From Caprella mutica (taxonomy: Eukaryota > Arthropoda > Malacostraca > Amphipoda > Caprellidae): a DNA stretch of 64,000 nucleotides. The translations under genes were made by a program, and so were the position numbers. Below the pieces are notes generated by a model. That model had not been told where the DNA came from, ran no database searches, and was given only the letters and a program-made list of their open reading frames with translations. Below are positions 1 to 63,637 of this stretch, one piece after another. The stretch covers positions 51,765 through 115,764 of the forward strand of contig CANNZV010002493.1 in the NCBI GenBank assembly GCA_947561585.1. The letters are read 5' to 3'. Positions within the stretch are counted from its first letter, which is position 1, and every line of letters starts with the position of its first letter.

Positions 1-2427
1 CAAGTGCCAAACTGCCAACTTACATTTTTCAACTTTAAGTTTGCCAATAAGCCAAGTACCAAGCTGCAAACCTGGTACATAGGTATTTGAAAAAATAGAT
101 TTTAACAAATTACATTAAAACTAGGTAGCTAGCTATAAAGAGTGAAATAATTTTCTTTGTTTTTATACTATTATTATGTAAAAAATTTCCTAGATAATAT
201 TATGTAGATAATTTTTCCTATGGAATTTATTTATTCCATCCATTACTCGAGACAGATGGTACATTTAAAGAAAACATTACATGACACGAAATTATTCCAT
301 GTACATTATAGGGTTAATAGTTGATTATAACTCAACTGTCTTAACATGGATGTATTTTGTACAACGTACTTAAATACATAAAGGTTATCTAGGTACTGAA
401 AGCTAACCAAACATATTGTTTATTGACATATTATATCTATTTACTTGGCCACACCTATATAATTCTCACTTTTATTTTACTATATGTGACGTCATTTGCT
501 TACATCGTTTCTGAAGACTGGAACAACTTGAATTCGAAACTTTGTATACCTGTCTATTTATTTACCATGCAGCATATGCCCCTTTAATACCAGAGGTCAG
601 GTTCAGTAACTACTTATACCACACACAACATATTATACCCTTTAATACCAGAAGTCATTTATTATAAGTACTTATACCACATGAAACATACACCCCTTAA
701 ACACCAGAAGTCACGTAGTGTAACTCTCAGTATTTCTTCACGTTACGAGCGCGGGTTTAGTTTGCATGTAAATGACAGCATATGCCATAGGAGTGGAGTC
801 TGCTGTGTAATAGAGTGCTGATGGCTTTGTAATTACATTCAGATATTATTACTTCGTCTACAGAATATAATCTTAATTGTAGTTTGTTTGCAAATTTCAT
901 GTACTGGAGTCTGTAACAATTTGGTGTATTCGGATTTTTTATAATATGCAACTGGTGGCCACTGAATTGGATAGAGGCAGATAAATTGAACCTGGTCGAT
1001 CAGTTGTAAAAGAATCTACCTACTTGAATCCAATGGGTTCAGAGAGGATTGGAAGCCAATTTACTTTTAGTTTCTCACAATGTATTCCGTTTGTGGTTAG
1101 GATAAAAATCCGTTAGATTTACCTTTAGTACAGACTCTTTAAAGTACACTCGCTCTTTTTCCGAAGTCTGGCTGAACTGAAGCCCCTCCCACTTCATCCT
1201 ATCACATTTGTTTTCTGTTTGCCCTTTCATCATAAAATGATTTTATGGATACATTTTCAGCTCCCCATTGCACTGGAACTAATCAAGTTTTGATGTCTGG
1301 TACTTACGCCCTATTGAGCGGAGAATTTTTCTGTTATCGACTACACACTCTGTACTTTGCCTCAATTGATAACGGCTTTCGAACTGAGCCATTTCTTAAA
1401 TTGGTTTTAGTGTAGTAGAGTGGATATTACCGACAGAAAAGGAAGAGTTTGAACTCCTTTGGTAACGTCATAGAGAGAGCTCAGGTCCTCTTTAGGTTTT
1501 GGCAGAAGTCCAGCGGCGATACTACAATGCAGGCTCCTCATATTGTGCAAGAGGAACACTGTCTCCTGCAGTCAGATTCACTACCATAGTTACTCAAACA
1601 ATAAGTTTCACTCCAGGCACACATTTATAATTCGTAGCTTTTTCCCTATTATTCAGCTTTGATATTAGATTGCGGAAGTTGATGATTGTTCTACTTTCTG
1701 AATGGCGGACAGAACTGCAAAAGGGAATTGAGAAACTTGGCGCAGATGAGATTTATAGAGAAACTTTCGCTTGGCTGATAATCTAAAGGAAATGCTCTGG
1801 CGACCCGAACTGCCAGTTGTCGTGAGTTAAGTGGAGCGGGATAGACAGCTAGAATAATGAAGAGACAGCTGTTGTGTACCATCTGCCTCCACACCAACTA
1901 CTTCTGCTTATTTCTCATAAACGAAGCCTACTTCTTTACTACCTAAAATATTGAAAAACCACCTGTATTGATATTAATTCTCATAATTTAAAAAATATTT
2001 GTAGGATATACCATAACATATTTAAGTTTCACATGTGATTAGACACATAAAAATGTTTGTACCGGCGATAAATGTATAAAATAACTGTAAAAGATTCATG
2101 TTAATGATAAAATGGAAAATCTTTTTCAGAAATTTGAAGGATATTCGTTTCAATTTATTGGAGATTGCAGAGATTACATATATTTGCCCAGTTAGCATAT
2201 TTGCGAGAGGATCATTTTTGTGCTATATAAAACAAATATGAACCAGAACAAAAAATACTTCCATTAAATCCTTAAACTACAAAAAGATTTACATCAATTC
2301 AACTACATCCACTACTAACAGATCTTTGTGTAATATTTCCAAAAGTGTAGTCAGAGTATTCAATTCATTCAGGGCTATGTACTTAATTACACTGTAATTG
2401 ATTATGTAAATGAAACAGAACGATTAC
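1..2427. other. Non-coding, AT-rich; no gene seen
   Basis: No open frame here resembles a known protein. The stretch around 1130-1900 is less AT-rich than its surroundings but shows no splice-bounded coding frame on either strand. The only structure noted is a weak threefold repeat near 573-714. Confidence 0.5.
573..714. repeat. Degenerate tandem repeat, about 3 x 60 bp
   Basis: Three imperfect copies of a unit containing CCCTTTAATACCAGAAGTCA followed by ACTTATACCACA occur in succession. The copies differ by small indels and substitutions, so the array looks old. Confidence 0.55.
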
Positions 2428-17151: not shown

Positions 17152-17885
17152 GTACGATAGAGACGATAGAGACGATAGTACGATAGTACGATGGAGACGA
17201 TAGTACGATAGAGACGATAGTACGATAGAGACGATAGTAGGATAGAGACGATAGTACGATAGAGACGATAGTACGATAGAGACGATGGAACGATAGAGAC
17301 GATAGAGACGATAGTACAGTAGAGACGATAGAACGATAGAAACGATAGTACGATAGAGACTATAGTACGATAGAGACTATAGTACGATATAGACGATAGT
17401 ACGATAGAGACTATAGTACGATAGAGACTATAGTACGATAGAGACTATAGTACGATAGAGACTATAGTACGATATAGACGATAGTACGATAGAGACTATA
17501 GTGCGATAGAGACTATAGTACGATAGAGACTATAGTACGATAGAGACTATAGTACGATAGAGACTATAGTACGATAGAGACTATAGTACGATAGAGACTA
17601 TAGTACGATAGAGACTATAGTACGATAGAGACTATAGTACGATAGAGACTATAGTACGATAGAGACTATAGTACGATAGAGACTATAGTACGATAGAGAC
17701 TATAGTACGATAGAGACTATAGTACGATAGAGACTATAGAACGATAGAGACGATAGTACGATATAGACGATAGTACGATAGAGACGATAGTACGATATAG
17801 ACGATAGTACGATAGAGACTATAGTACGATAGAGACTATAGTAAGATATAGACGATAGTAGGATAGAGACGATAGTACGATGCAG
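17152..17885. repeat. Minisatellite, 17-bp unit, about 43 copies
   Basis: The unit is AGTACGATAGAGACTAT, with a GACGAT variant at both ends of the array and GACTAT in the middle. The common unit contains the 8-base palindrome ACTATAGT across the junction. The array ends 58 bases before the 45-bp receptor exon, so it lies inside the intron beside that acceptor. A minus-strand open frame across it is an artefact. Confidence 0.93.
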
Positions 17886-17943: not shown

Positions 17944-17988
17944 AATCTGAGAGAGCAGATCATGACGACCAACGTGTGGGTTGATCAT
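17944..17988 (+). CDS. nAChRalpha2: nAChR alpha2 exon, 45 bp
   Basis: Encodes [15 protein letters not shown] in phase 0. A 45-bp exon with this content is a conserved nAChR exon. The acceptor is TTTCTTTCCAG and the donor GTAAGT. Confidence 0.95.
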
Positions 17989-20900
17989 GTAAGTTATATT
18001 AGTCAATAAATTAAATACAGTAACTTAAAAAAATAATGACAATGAACAGATAATAATAAGTTATAAATCTTTATATTTTACTCTTGAAAATATTACTTAG
18101 GAACAAGATTTGTTTGTGATCTGTCAAGAAATATGAGTCAAGCAATTCAAATTAGTTGGCAAAAGTCGGATAAGTAAATATTGCATCCAATTTGTTTTTC
18201 ATTATTTATTCTGAATGAAATGGGAACAATAATGTCAGTATTTCGTTCTAAATCGAAATACTCTCGTCAAATATTTAATAGCAATAGCAATTATAGTAAA
18301 TACTTTACATGACTTTACTGCTTCAATAATAATAACTCATTTTTCCTTATAGGTGTAGAGATTGAATATTAAAATATATTATATAGTAAATCATTAATTA
18401 ATATTACAATAAACTGACTCGTTGAATTTAAAATTACAGCGGGTGCATTTTCCTACTTCTTGTGTCCATTTGCTAATAAGTGTACTCCTTTTTCTCCCTC
18501 TACCACGTAATTCGTAATGGTCCATTGCAGGAGTGGAAGGACCACAAATTCCAGTGGGACCCAGACGAGTACGGAGGCGTCACGGAACTCTACGTGCCGT
18601 CTGAGATCATTTGGCTGCCCGACATAGTGCTTTACAACAAGTAAGTATTACGGATTACATAGGTACTCGACATAGTGCTTTACAACAAGTAAGTGTCAGG
18701 GATTACATAGGTACACGACATAGTGCTTTACAACAAGTAAGTGTCAGGGATTACATAGGTACAGACATAGTGCTTTATAACAAGTAAGTGTCAGGGATTA
18801 CATAGGTACACGACATAGTCCTTTACAACAAGTAAGTGTCAGGGATTACATAGGTACACGACATAGTGCTTTACAACAAGTAAGTGTCAGGGATTACATA
18901 GGTACAGACATAGTGCTTTACAACAAGTAAGTGTCAGGGATTACATAGGTACTCGACATAGTGCTTTACAACAAGTAAGTGTCAGGGATTACATAGGTAC
19001 AGACATAGTGCTTTACAACGAGTGAGTGTCAGGGATTACATAGGTACAGACATAGTGCTTTACAACAAGTAAGTGTCAGGGATTACATAGGTACTCGACA
19101 TAGTGATTTACAACAAGTAAGTGTCAGGGATTACATAGGTACAGACATAGTGCTTTACAACGAGTGAGTGTCAGGGATTACATAGGTACAGACATAGTGC
19201 TTTACAACGAGTGAGTGTCAGGGATTACATAGGTACAGACATAGTGCTTTACAACAAGTAAGTTTCAAGGATTATTTAGGTACAAGACATAGTGCTTTAC
19301 GAAAAGTTTACAATAAGTTGGTGTTTTTTAAATAAATTATTTAAAGACACCTACACACTGTCAAACAATATTTGTCAGACTAGTTGAAATTTGTTCGATT
19401 TTTATTGTTTACAAACACTAAAATGGATGATTTGAAGTGATTGCTCAGGTTGGAAAATTATTTATCCATCACTAGAATCGAATAGTTAGTTATTGTACAT
19501 TTCTATTTGAACTTTATTATTTGTAAGTAGTCTAATATACAATCATGCATATAAGTACTTTCATGAGAAATTATAGATACACTCACTATCTATGATTAGC
19601 TTAATTAAAATTAGATATCAAATCCACGTTTGTTAAACAGTTTGACAAATACAATATCTAAACTAAACTATGTTTTAAGATAGTGGTTGAATTTGTCAAA
19701 CAGTATGACGAAGTGTTTGACAGTGTGTACACGGCAGTAGTCTCAGATATAAATCTCCAAGATGAAGTAATATCTTTGTCTGTTTCTTTTTCAAATTTAC
19801 TACATCAGGGAATATACACTAAATAGAATTTGAATATTCTGGATGGCAAAATTTCGTACAGAAATAATTGGAGCATTAAAATTCAGCTCGCTCGAGCATC
19901 TCACTGCCAGAAAAATTCAACGATCGTTACTTGCAATCAGCTTTCTGTTAAAAGACTGAAAAATATTCAAGTTCTGAATTCCGTGAGAGGAATTAGAGAT
20001 TCAATGAACCTTTCTACCAGGATCTTTTTTTGTTAAATATTTCGAAAGTTCTAGTAGTGAACTTTGAAAAAAGTTAAAGTAAATGCATGCTACCGAACTA
20101 TACTAATGGATCTTTGGTGAACTATCAGGATTATTTAATATTGCATGAGGAACTGGTTTGTGAATGCAATTTGCAAGTAATTGTAAAATCTTATCCAATT
20201 TCCAGTGCGGAACGTGACAAGCCTAGCCAGTCATTTTCTTGCGAGTTTGTTCACCGCTTGGCTGAAAAGCGACAAAATTCACACTTTCGGCTCTGAATTA
20301 CTTAACTTTTCGGAGCACATTTGTCACTTTTAACGAATTCCCGACTTCAAAGATCTAACGTGCCAAGAATATCTGTGGAGGAATAATGCCCGACTATATT
20401 CTGCTAAATATTTGTATTCTAAAAGTGAAGTAGTCATGCAAAGGGATTTTAAAATTCTGAAAGAATTTATGTATGAAGAACCTAATCAGTGTTTACTCAA
20501 AGTATTTATTTATTGGAAATAATTTAAATTTCTCATGTTCCAATGGTCCTTCAGTAGATTTTTATTCGATTTCCGAAGTACATTATGCAGTTTTGCAAGA
20601 GCCAAGACTGGGACATATGAGAGCAATTTTGCTGCTAGAGATACAAGATATCAAATAAATTGTCCTCAATCTATACCAGTCGGAGAGTATTTTAATTTAT
20701 TACTCTGGAGATCTCTGGATATTATTTCTGAAAGAATGTACGATATTTTTCTGTTTGAAAATACAGTTATAATACAGCATTGCCTATAGAATACATTGAT
20801 TTATGGATTTTTTTATTTGTTGGGCTTTGATAATTCTTTTACTATACTGAGTTTGATAATTTTGAAGTGAATTAATGTTTCTTATATAGATTGGTTACCA

Positions 20901-23900
20901 CTGAAGCAATAGTTTTTCGGGGTCTAATTTTAAATTTATATTTCTGATTAATGATTGAATAATAAAGATTGTATATTTGATGCCGAGTATATGTTCAATT
21001 GTAGTGAGTTTAGTTGAAATTAATAAATATAATTTTCATTCTGTAGCGCGGATGGAGAATACATCATCACAACTATGACGAAAGCCGTGATACATTTCGA
21101 TGGAAAAGTTGTGTGGAATCCTCCTGCCATCTTCAAGTCGTCGTGCGAGATCGACGTCACGTATTTCCCTTTCGACCAGCAACTTTGTTTCATGAAATTC
21201 GGGTCCTGGACTTACGACGGTTTCCAGGTAAATGAAAAACAGTCATCAATAGAACAGTGTAATAATTTATTGAAGAAAATAGAGGACTCCTTGCTTGCTG
21301 CATTTTGTTTAGGGTGAACAGCTCAACAAGAAGTAGTTTTGAAATTTCCCAAGCTTTCAGAATCCTTCGTGCTTTCCGTCTTCAGAAGAAACCGGAAACC
21401 ACGAAGGATTCTGAAAGCTTGGGAAATTTCAAAACTACTTCTTATTGAGTTCTTCACCCTTAACATAGTGTAATAATTGTGAATCCTTCTTGAATCGATT
21501 TCATTATTCACCTTCACCAACTTCACCAAACTATGTATGAAGATGTTTCATTGAACACTATACAAACTTCAATAGAAGAAGCCATTATTTATACCTATTC
21601 ACCAAGATTTATTGTGTGAATGTTTTGACCAAGCTGTCGTACAGTCTGGTAAAAGTGTAAGCTTGGGTCACGTACATTGATTGTAAGGCTATGTGTTTCA
21701 CTGAGGGAGAAATATGAAAGCTTTTCCAATTACTTTTATTGCTTTCTGTCTGCCCGAGAAAAATGACATTCTATTATTTATGGTCTACTTGTTGACTGAA
21801 GAACGGGGAGAGAAAAACATTGACCAGAAGATGAAACCTTTAAGAGCTCTTCATTTAAAACCCATTAAATATGATTTTATCAATATTGATATCTTATTAA
21901 TATTAGAATCAAAAAGATATCAAAACCTAATCTAATTAGAAAATTATTCATTAATATGATTTGCTACGGGATTTTTCCTTGGTAGCAATGTTTCTAGGGC
22001 CAACATTGGGACAAAATTGACCCAAGAATCATTCCTACCTGGGTTTACACTTTTTTGATTATGATTAATCATTTCTCAAATTTCCATAAAGGGAAACAAC
22101 TACATTTTATTTCCATTTAAATTTAATTTTGACTCTTGAATCGACTAAACTGCTCACTTATTTCCTAACAATATATTCAGATCGACCTGAAGCATCTAGA
22201 CTCAGAAGCTGGTAACAACTCTGTACCAATAGGTATTGATCTGAAGGACTACTATCCTTCTGTCGAATGGGACATCATGGATGTTCCCGCAACTCGAAAC
22301 GAAAAGTTCTACCCTTGTTGCGATGAACCCTACCCAGGTCAGTCTGAATTACCAATATTTTATATTAAAGAATATCTCACTATTTTCTTAAAAGATATTA
22401 TACATATAAGTTTTCCTGCCTATTCTACTAATCATTTTCTAGTTTTCCTTCACAATCAACTTTTCAACGTGAAATAATCCATACAATGCTCTCGAAATTA
22501 TTTATCATAAAAATTTCATGTTATACAGTGTGTCCGCAAAAAATGTATCCACTGCCTTGAATCTGCATTATTCATCATTTCACGATAATATGCATAAAAT
22601 ATTGGTACCATAAATACGTAAATTAATATTATTGAATTACAAATAGTACTTACAAGATAAATACGATGGCAGTGGATGCATTTTTTGCAGACACGCTGGG
22701 AAATGTAATTAGGGTATATTACGAATTGCTGGTCGATTTAAGAAAAAAATTATATATTTTTAATTTTTATTTCAATTGGAATACATGATACCTGCAAAAA
22801 TGTAATTAAATAACAATTATTTATCATCTTTTTCTTATATGACCGAAGATGTGAAACCAACCGACAATTCGTAACATTCTTTCCATTAAATTATAATTTC
22901 TTCCTCGCTTTTCATTTTAAGAAAAGTGAAAATGTTTCCACTTTCTTTCAGATATATATTTCAACATCACAATTCGCAGAAAGACCCTATTTTACACCGT
23001 CAACTTAATTATTCCGTGTGTAGGGCTGGAATACCTTGCCATTCTCGTTTTCTATTTACCTGCCTACTCTGGGGAGAAAGTGGCTCTATGCATTAGCATT
23101 TTGCTCTCACAGACGATGTTCTTCTTGCTAATCTCAGAGATTATACCATCCACTTCCCTGGCACTGCCACTGCTGGGAAAATTCCTCCTATTCTCAATGT
23201 TGTTAGTTGGAGTTAGTGTGCTTGTTACCATTTTCGTCTTGAATATACATTTTAGAAACCCATCCACGCATCACATGGCCCCTTGGATTAAGGAAGTGAG
23301 TTTGGCCTAATTTTGATCTTATGAAATTTAACTCTCCAATGGAGTATGTAATAATAATGTGTTGTTTCTTTTCTAGATTTTCATACATAAGTTGCCTGGA
23401 ATTTTAAAGATGAGAGTTCCAAAGCAAAATAAAGGATGTACAACTAATTACTATAAAACTGACGATGAGTCAGACACGAAGTCTGAACGAGACAGCGAGA
23501 GTAACACGAGGAATGAAGCCTCCATTCCTAAAGAAAACGGCAGTGGAAGATCTGGCTGCAAAGAGCATAGTAGAACGAATCCACCTTGCTATATTGGTAA
23601 ATAATTTCTTTAATTTTCTTTCAATGGATCATTGGATCATAGTTAACTACGTGTACATTATATTTTGAAAGTGATTCACATATCAAATTATATAATTATA
23701 ATTCATTTCAATTCTTTCGCATCAGACGCGTCTTACAATGGACTCTCCAGTGAAGATGTGTCTATTGAGATAGTGGCCTGCCTCCCTCCTCCACCGGCAG
23801 CGACAAGAAACTATAAAGGCAGTCCCACTGACGCCAACGAACCTGTCGCTACAGGCGAGGGAAGAATCGGTCGATTCGCCATTGATAAACGGAACAAGGA

Positions 23901-24606
23901 AATGGCAGAAGAATCGAGGAGTAACAGTAGAGGATCAAATTTGGATCTCATGGGCAAGCAGAGTAGAGGTCCGGCGAATCAAAAGGGATTTGCAGACAAA
24001 GGGGGTTTAAGAACAGGAGTTAGGAAAGATCCTACTAGCAAATCCAAAGGTGGGAAATACCCAGATGGTAGGAAGAGCGAAACTACGTTACGGTTCTCCA
24101 ATCTTAACGATAAACGAGATAACAAGTATTCTTCACAAACTACAAGGAGAATTAACAGCGGCAGATTATTATTCGAAGCATCTTATGATCAGCTGCCGGA
24201 ATGTTTTCACATCGGCCATAACCCTGAAGCTTATTACCCTCCAGAGATTAGGAAAGCTATTCACAATGTTCAATTTATCCACACTCATATGGTACAGCAG
24301 GATAAATTCAATGAGGTGAGGAGTACTGCTTAAAACCCACCTTTAATTCTCATAATCATTAATCTCTCAGCGTTATTTTAATCTTGCAAAATACCTCTCA
24401 CCTTTTTTCAGATAGATGACGATTGGGCGTTCGTTGCCATGGTCTTGGATCGCCTATTACTTTATATATTTTTCGTCATTTCTGTCATTGGGACAGTAGC
24501 AATCCTTTTCCAGTCGCCGTATCTGTACGACACGACTGAGCCTATAGATATATTCATCAGCAAAGTGGCGCGAGCTAGTCTGGGACTAGATGACGACGAT
24601 ATCTAG
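17944..24606 (+). CDS. nAChRalpha2: Nicotinic acetylcholine receptor alpha2-type subunit, 3' part (8 exons)
   Basis: Encodes a subunit of a pentameric acetylcholine-gated cation channel of the neuronal plasma membrane. Exons are 17944-17988, 18531-18640, 21047-21227, 22181-22337, 22952-23295, 23377-23596, 23726-24315 and 24412-24606; all introns are GT-AG and phases join without a stop to give 613 residues. Numbered in this fragment: loop A region [14 protein letters not shown], the 13-residue Cys-loop C85-C99, loop B WTYDG, the vicinal cysteines C158-C159 that define alpha subunits, M1 about 178-201, M2 about 206-229, M3 about 236-263, a very long M3-M4 loop, and M4 about 555-582. The words [20 protein letters not shown] and [12 protein letters not shown] match insect alpha2 rather than alpha1, alpha3 or beta1 as I recall them. 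The signal peptide and first binding-domain exons are missing, probably upstream of the window. Confidence 0.95.
18531..18640 (+). CDS. nAChRalpha2: nAChR alpha2 exon, 110 bp
   Basis: Encodes [16 protein letters not shown] through [11 protein letters not shown], with the last Asn codon split after two bases. It carries the loop A segment of the ligand site. The 110-bp size is the conserved nAChR exon size. The donor GTAAGT at 18641 is the first of a series of tandemly duplicated donors. Confidence 0.96.
18621..19310 (+). repeat. 47/48-bp minisatellite derived from the exon end and its 5' splice site
   Basis: Fifteen copies start at 18621, 18669, 18717, 18764, 18812, 18860, 18907, 18955, 19002, 19049, 19097, 19144, 19191, 19238 and 19286. 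The first is the authentic last 20 bases of the 110-bp receptor exon plus its donor. Each unit carries GACATAGTGCTTTACAACAA followed by GTAAGT and about 20 bases of intron. Thirteen duplicates keep a GT donor (ten GTAAGT, three GTGAGT); the last copy has lost it. The unit alternates between 47 and 48 bases depending on a CAGA, CTCGA or CACGA junction. Confidence 0.96.
19311..21046 (+). other. Remainder of the large receptor intron
   Basis: About 1.7 kb of AT-rich intron between the minisatellite and the Cys-loop exon. It contains several short chance frames (for example near 19830-20300 and 20473-20789) with no family resemblance or suitable splice sites. Confidence 0.6.
21047..21227 (+). CDS. 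nAChRalpha2: nAChR alpha2 exon, Cys-loop
   Basis: Completes the split Asn codon, then encodes [16 protein letters not shown] through WTYDGFQ. It contains the signature Cys-loop [15 protein letters not shown] (residues 85-99) and loop B. The donor is GTAAAT. Confidence 0.97.
21311..21460 (+). repeat. Intronic near-perfect hairpin, 67-bp arms
   Basis: The left arm 21311-21377 and right arm 21394-21460 are reverse complements with about four mismatches and a 16-base loop. The inner 40-odd bases, including AAATTTCCCAAGCTTTCAGA, pair without a mismatch. It lies in the intron after the Cys-loop exon, so the pre-mRNA would contain a long double-stranded stem. It may be a very short fold-back element, a hairpin-RNA precursor or an editing substrate; the sequence alone does not decide. 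Confidence 0.9.
21977..22053. mobile_element. Small MITE, GGTAGCAA family, in receptor intron
   Basis: The left end TTGGTAGCAATGTTTCTAGG and the right end (revcomp CCCAGGTAGGAATGATTCTT) are imperfect inverted repeats. The interior has CCAACATTGGGACAA. A second copy lies at 28583-28679. Confidence 0.7.
22181..22337 (+). CDS. nAChRalpha2: nAChR alpha2 exon, loop C
   Basis: Encodes [14 protein letters not shown] through [10 protein letters not shown]. The adjacent cysteines 158-159 are the alpha-subunit signature at the agonist-binding loop C. NNS at 124-126 is a possible glycosylation site. It ends one base into an Asp codon. Confidence 0.97.
22526..22698. mobile_element. MITE, CAGTGTGTCCGCAAAAAATG ends, in receptor intron
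   Basis: 173 bp with 31-bp terminal inverted repeats differing at about three positions. The left end CAGTGTGTCCGCAAAAAATG is matched by the reverse complement of GCATTTTTTGCAGACACGCT. TA precedes the left end; the right flank is GG, so the target duplication is not intact. Tc1/mariner-type origin is inferred from the terminal sequence. Confidence 0.85.
22711..22884. mobile_element. MITE, GGTTCCATATTTTCGATC family, in receptor intron
   Basis: Starts AGGGTATATTACGAATTGCT and ends with a diverged inverse ACCGACAATTCGTAACATTC. It lies 12 bases from the previous MITE and ends 67 bases before the M1-M3 exon. Confidence 0.7.
22952..23295 (+). CDS. nAChRalpha2: nAChR alpha2 exon, M1-M3
   Basis: Encodes M1, the pore-lining M2 ([18 protein letters not shown]) and M3, ending APWIKE. 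Two residues are unusual for the family: Glu191 within M1 (relatives have a small polar residue in the GISYL segment) and Tyr203 in LPAYSGEK, where Asp is the usual residue before SGEK. The donor is GTGAGT. Confidence 0.97.
23377..23596 (+). CDS. nAChRalpha2: nAChR alpha2 exon, start of cytoplasmic loop
   Basis: Begins [16 protein letters not shown], the conserved segment after M3. It continues into a hydrophilic stretch rich in Asp, Glu, Ser and Lys ([16 protein letters not shown]). It ends in phase 1 and is followed by a 129-bp intron. Confidence 0.93.
23726..24315 (+). CDS. nAChRalpha2: nAChR alpha2 exon, large cytoplasmic loop
   Basis: A 590-bp exon encodes about 196 residues of poorly conserved M3-M4 loop rich in Arg, Lys, Ser and Gly. 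It ends in the conserved amphipathic helix [19 protein letters not shown] just before M4. With the previous exon the loop is about 280 residues, clearly longer than the Drosophila alpha2 loop as I recall it. Confidence 0.93.
24412..24606 (+). CDS. nAChRalpha2: nAChR alpha2 terminal exon, M4
   Basis: Encodes [20 protein letters not shown], the rest of M4 and a short extracellular tail ending GLDDDDI before the TAG at 24604-24606. Confidence 0.96.
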   Translation: MDDDWAFVAMVLDRLLLYIFFVISVIGTVAILFQSPYLYDTTEPIDIFISKVARASLGLDDDDI

Positions 24607-31952: not shown

Positions 31953-34900
31953 CCAAACGTTTCTGTACTATTGAGTTGTACGTATAACACCAATATCACG
32001 GAAATAGGATGAATGGTTAATCCTAGTGTAAATTACATTATATCATACCTACAAATAATGAAACTGTATTGAATGATACAGTAAAGATAAAACAAACCTC
32101 AATAAACTGAATGTACATAGCATAAAGCTTTTAGATGTTCTCTATTAAAATATATTTTAATTTAAAATAATTTTTTTTGATGTATATATCGCTTTCATTG
32201 ATCATTTTCGACTAGTTAAATAATTGTTGAATAGTGTTTTGGAATCTAATGATGGAAAATTTCTTTTGGTAGATAATAATAGATTAATTTGCTACAATAA
32301 CAGTTAATTCCTTTTTTATATATAAATGTCAGTGCTTGATACAATCACTACTGCTAAATGTACTTACAGGAAAATTGCGTGACACTATTATTTGTTATGG
32401 ATAGAATAATATATGGAATAAATTAATTGCTCAACTGTAACCTGTTTCCAAAATGTTAATATGGATTATCAATAATAAACTATTGCCAAGACCATAGGCT
32501 GAATCTTATTGTTGAACTGTCTTTCATTTCCTTCTTCAATAATGAAAATTATATAATATTTAAAAAAAAAACATGATGATAAAAACGAACAACGATGCAT
32601 GTCCCAGAGTGAAAATTGTAATCCTAATCGTAAGATTTCAATCAATGCTTAAATATCATATCTATCAACGATAATAAATATCCAACCATAATTGATCATA
32701 AATTCAAAATACCTTTAAACTTATTCTAATATTCCAAAATAGAAACGTCTGAAATTACGATTTATTCATTTTATCGTTTTTTCTTATAGTCTCGTTGAAA
32801 AAGTAGGAGGAGCTTAGCATAAAGTCTGGTGAAAAGACTTAAAAAACCCTGCGTGTGTACGGCCCTTGAAGGCCAACAGTGGAAGATCTACCGGTATACT
32901 AGGTACTATTTTAACTACTAGTACAGTACCTGTTGTTCATTAATTGAGAGTTCAAGGGTTTAGGATTATATTCAAATACATACATATATGAACATAAACA
33001 ATATATAAAAATCATGAAATTATTTTTTTTACTCCTCAGGGTTAAAACTCTCATTTTCAACTATTATTATTGGTGTGGTGAAAAAAAAAAAATTATCAGT
33101 TTTTCTTTTCAATTAGTGTTTCTTTTATTTTTCTGTTATTATCACCAACCTTATGAGGCGCTGTTGATAGAATGTCTGTTTAACCCATTCTGTGACACAC
33201 GGACAGACAGACAGACATACAGGCAAGCAAACAGACAGACAGATATATTTTTCCTGCCTGGGTACAATTATAACTGAGTTTTTGTTGCTTGTTGTACCAG
33301 AGGAAGAAATTAGATGACGCCAAACCAGATCATGGAAAAAAAGATCACTGTACGGTGATATGGGACAACTGGACGCCTAATTAAGGAACTTCCAAAAAAC
33401 TTCCGCCCGCTAATTAAAACGGATAATTTATTAATTACTTACAGGGGACATAAAAAGCTATGGTTCTTTTTTACTTCAGAGTCACTTTGATCTCCATCCA
33501 AAGTGATGTTTCTACAATGCTCGCAAAATCATTCATAAATAACTAATAATAATATATGAATTTCAATTTCATAATCATTACTAATCATATAAACCTATCG
33601 ATAAATTGTTCATAAATTTAGGTATCTTTATTTTGATCTATCATAATATTGAATTCATCATGAATAATCAGAGAATAAATATTCTATATTATTATTTCGA
33701 GAAAACACCTAAAAACAACGGAGATGCCTACCAATATTTCACTAGAAAATGTTCAATTCGTATTAGTCTATGGTAAAATAAACAATTATTTCACTTAAAA
33801 TTCTTGTTGAAGAAGACAACTTTTTGTTATTGTACAATGAAGAATTGATATTTTATTTCAAATCTAATTTTTTTTTCCAATATTTCACGTATTATATGCA
33901 AATATTCGTACATATTACACCGCGTATACATCATGTTTATATTCCGAACAAATATCTTCTCACGAACACTTCTCAGGAGAAAAACTAGGCATTCAGAACT
34001 CAAGAGCAGAAAGATCAACTCAGTCTATATCAGACGTTCTCAGGCACGAAAGGAATTAGTTTATGTCTGACTCGAGGCGCTACTGCAATCTAGAGCATTG
34101 CAGTCCTCGCCAAATTATTCCTGGGAGACTAGGGTTGGCTGAAAGCAGCTTCTTGCAATACTATCCCTCTGCAATATCAAAAATTATAGTCGAAAATTCT
34201 TGCATTCTTGATTTTCCTAGTAGGTTGTATGTAGTAATTAGTTTCAACTAAATTGACAGTTTTAATATTTTATGTCACAGTTGGTTAAAATGTGAAGAGC
34301 ACACTTTAAAGGATTATTTGATTTTGATTTAGTTAGTTTTGTATTTCACGAAGTTCTCGCAAACAACTGTTTCCAATCCATTGAATCACCCGGACCTTAA
34401 ATCTCCAAATCTATATACCATTTGGTATATAAATACGACGTAGGAACCAAACAAACACGCTCCTGAACCGCAAATCCTTCTAAAGTGCCGAAAATAGATA
34501 AATGTTTTCTCAGAGCAATCCAAATTTCAGAAGAAAATCCCAGGAAACTTCGAATCTGCTGCAAGGCCTGAGTTTGCTGGAAGAGTTTGCAAAATTATTG
34601 CTTGTGAACAAACCATGAGTTATTTGACATTAGAAGAGATATGTTTGGTGAGGAAAGAGCTGCTAATGAAATACGGCGAGTAGGGGACCATACAACACTC
34701 TCAACTGTTTCTGAATTGTGAGAAGACTGTGTAAACTAAGGCGCTCAAACGGAGTATTTAGTGGGCTGTAAATCTGCAGAATCCTGCTTCTCTTGTAGCT
34801 AGTACAATTACTAAATTATCTCTAGTTAAACATTTGGCAGAAGTGAAAAACTGTCTGACATAATAGTTCAAATTAGTTGATTTGCGGTTCATTCATAAAT

Positions 34901-59839: not shown

Positions 59840-60383
59840 CTGTCTGCTTAGGTTCGTTAGGGGAAAACTGAGAAGCGTTCGTGCATTCGTGGTGTGTTCA
59901 GTGTGTTTTTAGCAATCGTGAAGTGTGGTAACAAAGTGTCAGCTCCTGTTAATATAAACTGTCATAGCTACTACAGCGTGAGTTGACAGAAAATAAATTA
60001 AATGGAAAGAAAATTATTCCATTTATGATTCATTTGTATATACAAATGCAAAATAAAATGAATTCTTGGAAATTTCGGGACTAGTCCCTTTTTCCCATAA
60101 GAATTGGCTTACTCTAGGGTAATGCTTGTGAATGATTGACCATAGTCTGGATTAAACTCTATTTTATGAATAGTGTTCAAAGGTTACAAGAATTTTGAAA
60201 CTTTACAATGAACTGAAAATTAAATACCTATAATCATTATTTGAATTTCGTTTTCGATTATTAGGAAAGAAACTTACCTTACTATAATTTCTCGATGGAA
60301 ACTCTAACTTTTGTATAGGTAGCTACTATCTCGACAATTATTTGACTTTAATATTCTTGTTAATTGTTTACAGTTCTCTAGTC
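59840..60383 (+). promoter_or_regulatory. Putative leader/promoter of the DIRS element
   Basis: This stretch precedes the gag-like ORF. It contains TTCAGTGTG at about 59898, which resembles an arthropod initiator. GTGGTAACAAAG (donor-like) at about 59927 and TTGTTAATTGTTTACAG (acceptor-like) ending at 60373 would remove most of the leader if spliced. All of this is inference. Confidence 0.25.
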
Positions 60384-61577
60384 ATGTCTTCTGATATTTT
60401 GAGTGAAATTATTGACAGCAATGCTGTACCAGTTAAAGAAACTAAAACTACTGAAAAAGAAAAAATTAAAACTGGTAGCAAGAATGACTCGAAACGTACG
60501 GAAGCCGGTGGTAGTAAGCAGTCCTCTAGTAGTGCTAATGGAAGTAAATCTACCGATTCTGGAGGTAAGCAGTCTAAACAAACTACTAGCACGGCTTCAA
60601 AAAATGATTTTCTAGAAAAACTAGGAAATATCATGGAAAACGGATTTTTAAATTTACAAACTAGTTTGTCTAAACTAGGAGATGATGTGGCAGATAAAAT
60701 AGCCACCAGGTTCTCTCCATCGAATGAATATGAGGATGTGATTGATCATGATAATGGAGTCGAAGATGTTAGTGATGAAGATTTTGATGATGAAACTGGT
60801 GATAAACTTTTTGATTCTATATCAAAGGAGTTCGCTTCGCCTGAAGTAACTGATCCACCTGCTTCACCAAAAATTGCAAAACTAGTTGACATGATGTTAG
60901 GCATGAAGATTAACCCTAAAACGGCAAAGGAACGCAATGAAAAGTATCATCGACCGGAAAACATTCAATTTCTCTCTGCTCCCAAAGTTAACAAGCAGGT
61001 GTGGCTAGGTTTGAAACCTAAGACAAGAGCAGTTGATGCCCAGTTGCAGGAGGTACAGAAGGAATTCCTTACTAGTGCCATACCTATTGTGAATGCAATT
61101 GGTAAATTGAATGATGTCAGGGAAGGAAATGGAGATCTTGATTTAGGTCACTTAATACGGACTCTCTCTGATGCTGTGGGATTCATTGGTTCAGCTAATC
61201 AGAAAATAGTGCAAAACCGTAGAGATTTTATCAAAGAAGATCTCTCTCCTAAACTGAAAGGAATCTGCAGCATGGACGTACCCTTTTCTGGAAATTTTCT
61301 ATTCGGTGAAAACTTGGTGCAGAACATGAAGGATATGGCTGAAACTTATAAATTCTCTGAGGATTTGAGAAAATCTCCTACTTTTTCTTACCCTCACCGT
61401 GGAAAACTGAGACATGGAATGAATCAGCAATATGGATCCCACAGAGGTAGATTCCCTTACGTGGCTAGAGCCCGTGGAGTTAAACGGGAGAGGTTTTTTC
61501 CCTATGGCCAAAGAGGAGGCTATCAGTCGACGTCATTCAGAGGAAAAAACAAAGAAAGGATTCAGAGGGAGAAGTAG
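60384..61577 (+). CDS. DIRS gag-like protein (ORF1)
   Basis: Structural protein thought to package the element's RNA. The 397-residue reading starts at the ATG of MSSDILSEIIDSN. The frame is open 14 codons upstream, but only with a TTG and after an acceptor-like sequence. In order: a Lys/Ser/Thr/Gly-rich segment (about 15-75), a helical stretch FLEKLGNIMENGFLNLQTSL, an acidic cluster (115-140), a conserved DIRS-gag-like core (about 170-325) with RPENIQFLSAPKVNKQVW, RTLSDAVGFIGSA and LFGENL (306-311), and a basic Arg/Gly-rich tail (338-397) likely to bind nucleic acid. It ends 17 bases before the next ORF and lies in another frame. Assigned from arrangement and core motifs; no CCHC knuckle is present. 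Confidence 0.85.
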   Translation: MSSDILSEIIDSNAVPVKETKTTEKEKIKTGSKNDSKRTEAGGSKQSSSSANGSKSTDSGGKQSKQTTSTASKNDFLEKLGNIMENGFLNLQTSLSKLGDDVADKIATRFSPSNEYEDVIDHDNGVEDVSDEDFDDETGDKLFDSISKEFASPEVTDPPASPKIAKLVDMMLGMKINPKTAKERNEKYHRPENIQFLSAPKVNKQVWLGLKPKTRAVDAQLQEVQKEFLTSAIPIVNAIGKLNDVREGNGDLDLGHLIRTLSDAVGFIGSANQKIVQNRRDFIKEDLSPKLKGICSMDVPFSGNFLFGENLVQNMKDMAETYKFSEDLRKSPTFSYPHRGKLRHGMNQQYGSHRGRFPYVARARGVKRERFFPYGQRGGYQSTSFRGKNKERIQREK

Positions 61578-61594
61578 ATTCTGTTCAAGACAGA

Positions 61595-63637
61595 ATGCAG
61601 TCGAATGGGGTGAGTCTTAATTTTGGTGGTAGCATTACAAATTCTTTAGAATTCTGGAAATCCTTCACCAACGATAGTATAATTCATGATATTGTGAGTG
61701 GCGTTAACTTGGAATTCGATGGTAAATTACCAGCTCAAAAATTTGTGCCAAAACAAATTAGTTGTAATTCTTCTGAATATGATGCCATTACTAATGAACT
61801 GTCTTCATTCCTTGAAAGAGGAATTATTGAGAAAACTGAACATTGCGCTAATGAGTTTATTTCGCATATTTTTACTAGACCTAAAAGTGGTGGTAGAGTG
61901 CGCATTATCTTAAATCTAACTAAATTGAACGAGTTTATCGAGTACAAACATTTCAAAATGGAAACTTTTCCTGCAGCTTTAACTCTTATTGAAAGAAACT
62001 ACTACATGGGATCAGTAGATTTGAAAGACGCTTATTACTCTGTTCCAATTAGTGAAGATCATAGAAAGTACCTTAGATTCTTTTGGGATGGTGTTTTGTA
62101 TCAATATACATGTCTTCCTAATGGGTTGGCTAGTGCACCGCGCACTTTCACAAAGTTATTAAAGCCACTGTTTTCTCATCTTAGAAGTATGGGATACTTG
62201 TCACTTTATTATTTAGATGATACTCTGTTGATAGGAGACTCTATTTCTAAATGTAAAGACAATATTGATGAGACGGTTAGTGTCCTGACTAATGCAGGGT
62301 TCGTAGTTAATGAAGATAAAAGTGTTATTTGTCCAACCCGAGAAATCGAATTCTTAGGATTTACAATTAATTCTACTTTAATGACAGTAACTCTACCATT
62401 AGAAAAGGTCGCTGCTGTTGAATCGAAAAGTGCTACTTTATTGAAATCGAGTACGACTACTATTAGAGAGTTGGCGTCATATATAGGGTTAATTGTTTCT
62501 ACTTTCCCTGCTGTTAGATATGGTCCTTTGTATTATAGGAACTTGGAAAATTGCAAAATAGCAGCGTTGAAATTGAATTGTGGTAACTTTGATAGGCCTG
62601 TAGAAATTAACTTAGAATCAAAGAATGAAATCAGTTGGTGGCGTGACAATGTTTCTAGCTCATTTAAAAATATTAAAGACAGTCATTACGATGCTATTAT
62701 TGATGTAGATGCCTCGTTAGAAGGATGGGGTTGTGTTTATAATGGTAAAACTACTGGCGGAAGATGGTCATCTATTGAATGCTCTCTGCATATAAATGCA
62801 TTAGAATCTAAAGCTATCTTGTTTGCAATCCAAAGTTTCTTCCGTGATGAGAAGGATTTTCATATAAGAATTCGTTCTGATAATGTTACTGCAGTTACTT
62901 ACTTGAATAAAATGGGTGGTACTAAGTCTTCAGCATGTAATACTATTATAAAAGAATTATGGCTATATTGCATAAACAGAAATATTTGGATTTCGGCCGA
63001 ACATTTACCTGGTACTGATAATATTATTGCTGACAAAGAAAGCAGGAAATTTAATGATGACATGGAATGGACATTGAAAGATTTATATTTCAAGTGGATA
63101 GAAAATTATTTTGGAATAGCTGAGGTAGATTTATTTGCTACTAGACTTAATGCAAAATATGATTGTTATGTTTCATGGAGACCAGATCCTAATGCTTTTT
63201 TCATCAATGCTTTTTGTAGAAGCTGGTACTCATTTAAATTTTATGCATTTCCTCCCTTCAGCCTTATTCCTGCTTGTTTGACAAAAATAATACAAGATCG
63301 AAACGAGGGAGTTCTAGTAGTACCACTGTGGACAGGACAAATTTGGTTTCCGAAATTGATGAAAATGCTAATATCTCCTCCTCTGTTATTCCCCAAAGAC
63401 GCATTGTTCCTGACACACAAAATCAAGCTGGACCATCCACTAAAGAAGTCATTGCGACTGATGGCATGTCGTGTATCAGGAAATTTTATGAAAGTCGAGG
63501 AATTCCGTCGGACGCTGTCTCAGTCATTATGTCATCCTGTAGAAAGAGTACAGCAATTCAGTATGAAACGTATTTTAAGAAGTGGTATAATTTCTGTTGT
63601 CGAAGGAAAATCAATCCTGTGTGTGCTTCCGAAATAA
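61595..63637 (+). CDS. DIRS reverse transcriptase-RNase H-methyltransferase-like polyprotein (ORF2)
   Basis: 680 residues. It copies the element's RNA into DNA. RT: GGRVRIILNLTKLNEF (99-114), VDLKDAYYSVP with the first catalytic Asp at 142, LPNGLASAPRTFTKLL (174-189), and the active-site box YLDD at 206-209. RNase H: IDVDASLEGWG (Asp372), Glu404 in NALESKA, Asp429 in RSDN and Asp480 in HLPGTDNIIAD, so all four catalytic acids are present. C-terminal domain (about 505-630): VDLFATRLN, SWRPDPNAFFINAF, FYAFPPF, as in the Dam-like methyltransferase region of DIRS and Ngaro elements. No premature stop. The last 57 codons overlap the recombinase ORF in the -1 frame. Translation is probably by reinitiation from ORF1 or an internal start. 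Confidence 0.95.
   Translation: MQSNGVSLNFGGSITNSLEFWKSFTNDSIIHDIVSGVNLEFDGKLPAQKFVPKQISCNSSEYDAITNELSSFLERGIIEKTEHCANEFISHIFTRPKSGGRVRIILNLTKLNEFIEYKHFKMETFPAALTLIERNYYMGSVDLKDAYYSVPISEDHRKYLRFFWDGVLYQYTCLPNGLASAPRTFTKLLKPLFSHLRSMGYLSLYYLDDTLLIGDSISKCKDNIDETVSVLTNAGFVVNEDKSVICPTREIEFLGFTINSTLMTVTLPLEKVAAVESKSATLLKSSTTTIRELASYIGLIVSTFPAVRYGPLYYRNLENCKIAALKLNCGNFDRPVEINLESKNEISWWRDNVSSSFKNIKDSHYDAIIDVDASLEGWGCVYNGKTTGGRWSSIECSLHINALESKAILFAIQSFFRDEKDFHIRIRSDNVTAVTYLNKMGGTKSSACNTIIKELWLYCINRNIWISAEHLPGTDNIIADKESRKFNDDMEWTLKDLYFKWIENYFGIAEVDLFATRLNAKYDCYVSWRPDPNAFFINAFCRSWYSFKFYAFPPFSLIPACLTKIIQDRNEGVLVVPLWTGQIWFPKLMKMLISPPLLFPKDALFLTHKIKLDHPLKKSLRLMACRVSGNFMKVEEFRRTLSQSLCHPVERVQQFSMKRILRSGIISVVEGKSILCVLPK

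Follow-up and report, generated by a model that had tools for sequence, protein, structure and literature searches.

"Mirages" is the name given in amphioxus to tandem repeats extending across an exon-intron boundary, and they occur there in Adh3 and in the globin genes BflGb6 and BflGb9. RT-PCR is reported to show that they leave regular splicing undisturbed (PMC3087553). In human ABCA7, retention of a single unit of the intron-18 VNTR is given as 2 ± 1%, and longer arrays are reported to bring more exon-19 skipping and lower expression (PMC5954066). The human CBS gene carries a 31-bp VNTR at exon 13/intron 13, c.1444_1467+7(16_21), in 16-21 copies (PMC2630376, PMC5188458, PMC1395315), and more repeats are reported to go with lower enzyme activity (PMC5188458). 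Another junction duplication of CBS, 844ins68, is described as spliced at its distal copy (PMC2630376). In the human IFI6 (6-16) minisatellite, the repeat units are reported to serve as alternative splice donors (PMC4526556). Among the titles and abstract openings of the matches listed in the open-licence literature, none concerned a splice-junction array in a nicotinic receptor gene or an insect gene.

Here we analyzed a stretch of 64,000 nucleotides from Caprella mutica (contig CANNZV010002493.1, positions 51,765 to 115,764), referred to below as the window. It holds a minisatellite built on the splice donor of a receptor gene. An earlier sequence-only reading had found this array and knew of no such case in an ion-channel gene. 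With that wording the claim still stands for ion channels; the architecture itself has been reported in amphioxus Adh3 and globins (PMC3087553), ABCA7 (PMC5954066) and CBS (PMC2630376).

The receptor gene and the array over its exon b donor

Eight exons, separated by GT/AG introns, span 17944-24606 of the plus strand and give a product of 613 aa with 0 internal stops. Exon a (17944-17988, 45 bp) is followed by exon b (18531-18640, 110 bp), which ends in phase 2 (AAC AA) and whose last 20 bases supply the exonic portion of the repeat. The next exon past the array is exon c (21047-21227). Exon d (22181-22337), exon e (22952-23295), exon f (23377-23596) and exon g (23726-24315) follow, and exon h (24412-24606) carries the stop codon. 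The first transmembrane segments lie in exon e.

The product matched PF02931 at 4.8e-63 and PF02932 at 1.4e-67, the ligand-binding and transmembrane domains, with the frame intact. Its top PDB matches are nicotinic acetylcholine receptor (nAChR) subunits, the best being the neuronal alpha-4 subunit (6.3e-119). When exon b was spliced in phase 2 to 21047, the sequence LYNN-ADGEY was restored, and it aligned gap-free to LYNNADG of the alpha-4 subunit (8ssz_A). Judged by these matches, the gene is a nicotinic acetylcholine receptor subunit, and both the gene and its 110-bp exon are as first read. Exon d encodes YPCC. Vicinal cysteines are the mark of alpha subunits, and the gene may be of the "insect type". 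The first exon lies outside the window; the 613-aa frame covers exons a-h. At 32214-32333 of this contig, ∼37 kb 5′ of exon a and on the plus strand as well, a further match covers the beginning of the binding domain; by its order and strand it may be the first part of the gene.

The minisatellite at 18621-19307 (plus strand) was called by TRF with a period of 47, 14.5 copies and 94% match. Cutting at GACATAG gave 15 starts; 14 belong to complete units (47 or 48 bp each), and the last, at 19286, to a degenerate one. The 47/48-bp unit of the sequence-only reading is right. Its count of 15 copies holds for 14 complete units with 14 donors, whereas the 15th is decayed and has lost its donor. Each complete unit consists of the last 20 bases of exon b, the GT donor and ∼21 more intron bases. 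The first copy is the authentic junction of exon b, as had been claimed and as the in-frame LYNN-ADGEY join confirms. A tandem unit spans the exon-intron boundary, the authentic junction is terminal and the splice signals are retained; in these respects the array has the layout of a mirage minisatellite.

The 14 GTRAGT donors start at 18641, 18689, 18737, 18784, 18832, 18880, 18927, 18975, 19022, 19069, 19117, 19164, 19211 and 19258. The native donor (18641-18646) is GTAAGT, and the thirteen duplicates (18689-19263) are 10 GTAAGT and 3 GTGAGT, so that GTAAGT makes up 11/14 and GTGAGT 3/14. GTRAGT is thus present in every complete duplicate (13/13), the number first reported, and absent from the 15th copy. 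The 9-mer CAAGTAAGT occurs 11 times on the plus strand of the window, each time inside the array (11/11). Mismatches to the unit consensus over the 14 units were 6/280 sites in the exon part, 3/84 in the donor and 10/294 in the intron part. Compared with the consensus of the duplicates, the native unit differs at 3/26 positions of the intron part and 0/20 of the exon part. The units have private and shared variants and fall into two length classes.

Reading past the first donor gives AAC AAG TAA, a stop within the binding domain, as the sequence-only reading had stated. By translation, all thirteen downstream donors (13/13) lead to a stop directly after LYNK and none to an open extended protein of the IFI6 type. 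Of the 14 donors, the native one alone yields an open message; a receptor would be obtainable from no downstream donor. Exon b would be 158 nt long via donor 2 and 727 nt via donor 14, with 48-617 nt added. The LYNK stop would lie upstream of the next exon junction, by 44 nt with donor 2 and by 92-613 nt with donors 3-14. The native donor has a predicted U1 duplex of -7.5 kcal/mol; the values are -7.5 or -7.6 in 12/13 duplicates and -5.6 in the last.

Other repeats were seen in the window. A 17-bp array of 43 copies (17152-17881) ends ∼60 bp before exon a, short of the junction. A dispersed repeat at 19348-19697 lies directly 3′ of the minisatellite, and 38/40 scored genome matches fall there, at 66-93% identity. 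Introns of the gene hold inverted repeats at 21301-21470 and 22526-22698, with arms of 83 nt (89% complementary) and of 31 nt (90% complementary, 111 nt between), which resemble small mobile elements. Frames of 429 and 717 aa on the plus strand at 60288-63637 belong to a retroelement, the second with an RVT_1 reverse transcriptase domain.

Junction arrays in related receptor genes

The genome (903 Mb, 7,200 contigs) was searched with the PF02931 profile. From the 124 matches listed, 30 were cut as loci, and 20 more stretches were fetched. We removed 18 small loci inside larger ones. TRF on 33 loci (302 kb including the window) gave 101 arrays with three or more copies, covering 11% of the bases. 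L028, which nearly duplicates L024, was dropped after this step. In the same genome, many near full-length Ion_trans matches in single open frames were seen on high-numbered contigs (C6458, C5707 and C7038, for example); they are candidates for single-exon genes or contaminant sequence.

Arrays cover 9/122 recognised receptor-gene splice junctions in 32 loci, window included (donors 7/65, acceptors 2/57). Besides the window donor, the covered donors are L037 7118 (31 bp × 13.6), L037 1204 (42 bp × 8.9), L040 2769, L040 8997 (14 bp × 12.3), L041 3894 and L029 1504 (60 bp × 7.6); the acceptors are L038 1125 (65 bp × 4.6) and L045 2954 (25 bp × 24.8). Reading of the ladder sequences confirmed that the splice site lies inside the unit. 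Three donor positions (L040, L029, L041) were corrected by hand. Five first exons (5 donors, 5 acceptors) were added to the count, and those of L037 and L041 had been noticed for arrays beforehand; the count before these additions is 8/112 junctions, made up of 6/60 donors and 2/52 acceptors. By eye, the L041 first-exon donor resembles a further ladder, whose first copy falls outside the TRF call and which was left uncounted. The acceptor-side arrays (L045 2948-3567, 24.8 copies, and L038 1083-1382, 4.6 copies; minus strand) repeat the polypyrimidine tract, the AG and the exon start 5′ of receptor exons. There, choice of the last acceptor is a harder question still than choice of a donor.

Seventeen other exon b homologues were examined, L001 being left out of the list. 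All of them have the homologous junction; 15 have no array over this donor and two do, namely L040 (C2077; 19 bp × 21.9) and L041 (C2978; 53 bp × 5.7). We therefore read the window array as an addition to an old junction. In L037, an array begins some 30 bp past the homologous donor. Counting the window gene, the homologous donor thus bears an array in three paralogous nAChR genes. A common origin of these three arrays was considered and rejected, since the units (47/48, 53 and 19 bp), the breakpoints and the intron halves differ, and we read them as separate events.

In a founder model, each array was given one founder unit placed at random within its own locus. The model expects 0.51-0.80 donors and 0.47-0.74 acceptors (∼1-1.5 junctions), compared with 7 and 2 observed. 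Seven donors were attained in 0/20,000 runs. When the window was excluded, 6 donors were observed and 0.45-0.71 expected (P 5e-5). The two acceptors by themselves were not significant (P 0.08-0.17), nor was the difference between donors and acceptors (P 0.17). In a second comparison, the first or last array unit lay on 9/122 junctions and on 35/1812 intron positions (19 distances; P 0.0013, and 0.004 without the window). An opposing count came from cover by any array, found over 8/112 junctions and 224/1812 intron positions, i.e. less often over junctions; we read this as exons bounding the arrays. The G+C content is 38% in arrays, 32% in background and 44% in exons, and composition may contribute to the excess because arrays and exons are both G+C-richer than background. 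The excess applies to one gene superfamily and includes the two pre-noticed first exons (L037, L041) among those added by hand.

Present-day array cover was also tried as the null. The window gene has 15 junctions; random placement over 64 kb covered a mean of 1.6-1.8 of them, and at least one in 60-69% of runs, so that one covered junction would be ordinary. We did not adopt this null, since a junction occupies a single ancestral position and array founders make up only ∼0.9% of the ancestral bases. Donor hexamers were examined as a general minisatellite motif. GTAAGT occurred in 1/101 array units (mean of 90 permutations 1.7) and GTGAGT in 6/101 (mean of 60 permutations 1.4, the highest). 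The test is a poor one and nothing was concluded from it, as several GTGAGT units are junction arrays themselves and a spurious 23-bp unit stood for the window array.

Arrays recur at splice junctions in this receptor superfamily. The genome seems unusually prone to them, because related genes carry several more ladders, and its splice junctions are likely candidates for hot spots where minisatellites arise. A broader statement is possible but doubtful as a whole: that junctions, donors above all, are such hot spots, with ∼1 in fifteen ligand-gated-channel junctions laddered and the same donor struck separately in three nAChR paralogues, and that leakage yields defective receptor transcripts varying with copy number.

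Probable use of the first donor

We consider it probable that the window array is a tolerated mirage, in which splicing takes place at the first donor, the copies belong to the intron and a small leak gives defective mRNA. Such an array would have started as a tandem duplication reaching from ∼20 bp before the end of exon b to ∼27 bp into the intron, and slippage or unequal exchange would presumably have raised it to 14 units. The genome has produced arrays of this kind repeatedly at splice junctions of receptor genes, as shown for this superfamily. The first donor is probably used in most cases, since it gives the exon its normal length of 110 nt and the U1 pairing of any later donor is at most 0.1 kcal/mol better. 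The ordinary message would result, because nothing is altered in the exon as far as the first donor, and the duplicates would normally be removed with the intron. Occasional use of donor 2 or a later one would add the extra sequence with its immediate stop, and the mRNA would decay or encode a truncated binding domain. This reading is supported by the 613-aa frame, open with the first donor only, by the 15/17 exon b homologues whose donor is free of an array, by the differing units of the seven donor and two acceptor arrays, and by the uneven retention of GT among duplicates. By analogy, the amphioxus RT-PCR and the low ABCA7 retention also suggest that the first donor is mostly used. A first copy need not win, however, as CBS 844ins68 is spliced at its distal copy. 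Also counting against a tolerated mirage, the duplicate GT is intact in 13/13, 21/21 and 11/11 copies of three ladders.

By analogy with ABCA7 and CBS, length-dependent harm is a real rival, though we think it unlikely here: an unselected array would measurably reduce correct splicing, either because its donors compete or because the following exon is skipped, and the effect would grow with copy number. Junction arrays are not always harmless, because ABCA7 skipping and expression and CBS activity worsen as repeat number rises (PMC5954066, PMC5188458), and the predicted U1 pairing of 12/13 window duplicates equals that of the native donor. The undisturbed splicing reported for amphioxus mirages argues the other way (PMC3087553).

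The sequence-only reading had also suggested that the ladder tunes receptor output. Identical donors would then compete and divert a set fraction to the NK-stop form, and this tuning would be selected. We find this improbable. The GTRAGT kept in all window duplicates and the arrays on one donor of three paralogues agree with it, but intact duplicates are expected anyway because unit variation is only ∼2%, and the three exon b arrays are unlike in unit and breakpoints, with 15/17 other homologues free of an array. Acceptors are affected too (L038, L045). In six donor ladders, with copies picked at ≥60% identity to the first copy, the duplicate GT is retained in 13/13, 21/21, 11/11, 4/5, 12/13 and 2/7 copies, with overall variation of 2-10%. 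Across these six, the GT columns showed no consistent extra conservation over the rest of the unit; L040 hints at it, and L029 shows the opposite (2/7). The L029 ladder (1066-1520, minus strand) has a shared G-to-C change that abolishes GT in 5/7 duplicates. The tuning claim thus has no positive support, and nothing in these sequences requires the ladders to work.

Multiplication or miscounting of copies by the assembler is very improbable given the private and shared variants, the two length classes and the unrelated units at other junctions, although a genome match search found a single full match to the locus and no second allele in the assembly, which leaves the length without independent confirmation.

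Comparison with described junction repeats

It is rare in nature for a spliceosome to meet a dozen near-identical donors that all share one exon context. A genome with several ladders is a natural experiment on first-donor choice and on copy number versus leak, and its ladders bear on where minisatellites begin. They are relevant, too, to a proposed contribution of boundary repeats to intron gain (PMC3087553, PMC2812944). In Plutella xylostella, mis-spliced and truncated transcripts of another nAChR subunit are reported to be associated with spinosad resistance (PMC2792709), which makes array length variation in receptor genes worth typing; a resistance link for the window gene is speculation.

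The window array shares several features with the amphioxus mirages. In both, the authentic boundary is one terminal copy and many copies have splice signals, and both amphioxus and the present genome have donor-side and acceptor-side arrays. They differ in phylum and gene, and in unit length: 150-160 bp in the globins and 10-72 bp in Adh3, compared with 47/48 bp in the window. Regular splicing and length instability were assayed for the amphioxus mirages (PMC3087553). The ABCA7 repeat also starts with a canonical exon donor; its 25-bp unit has the GT as its first bases and, unlike the window unit, repeats no exon sequence. The ABCA7 repeat has ∼24 units in the reference, retention of a single unit causes a frameshift, and its polymorphic length correlates with exon-19 skipping and lower expression (PMC5954066). 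The CBS unit is by its name the last 24 exon bases and 7 intron bases, boundary-spanning like the window unit, but it lies in a human enzyme gene and is associated with lower activity. In IFI6, use of downstream units gives further isoforms, whereas the downstream donors of the window all lead to a predicted stop (PMC4526556).

The architecture of the window array is already known from the amphioxus mirages and the ABCA7 exon-18 and CBS exon-13 VNTRs. What is new, and shown for these genes, is the recurrence of junction arrays within the genome of the window, at donors and acceptors, three of them on the same homologous donor.
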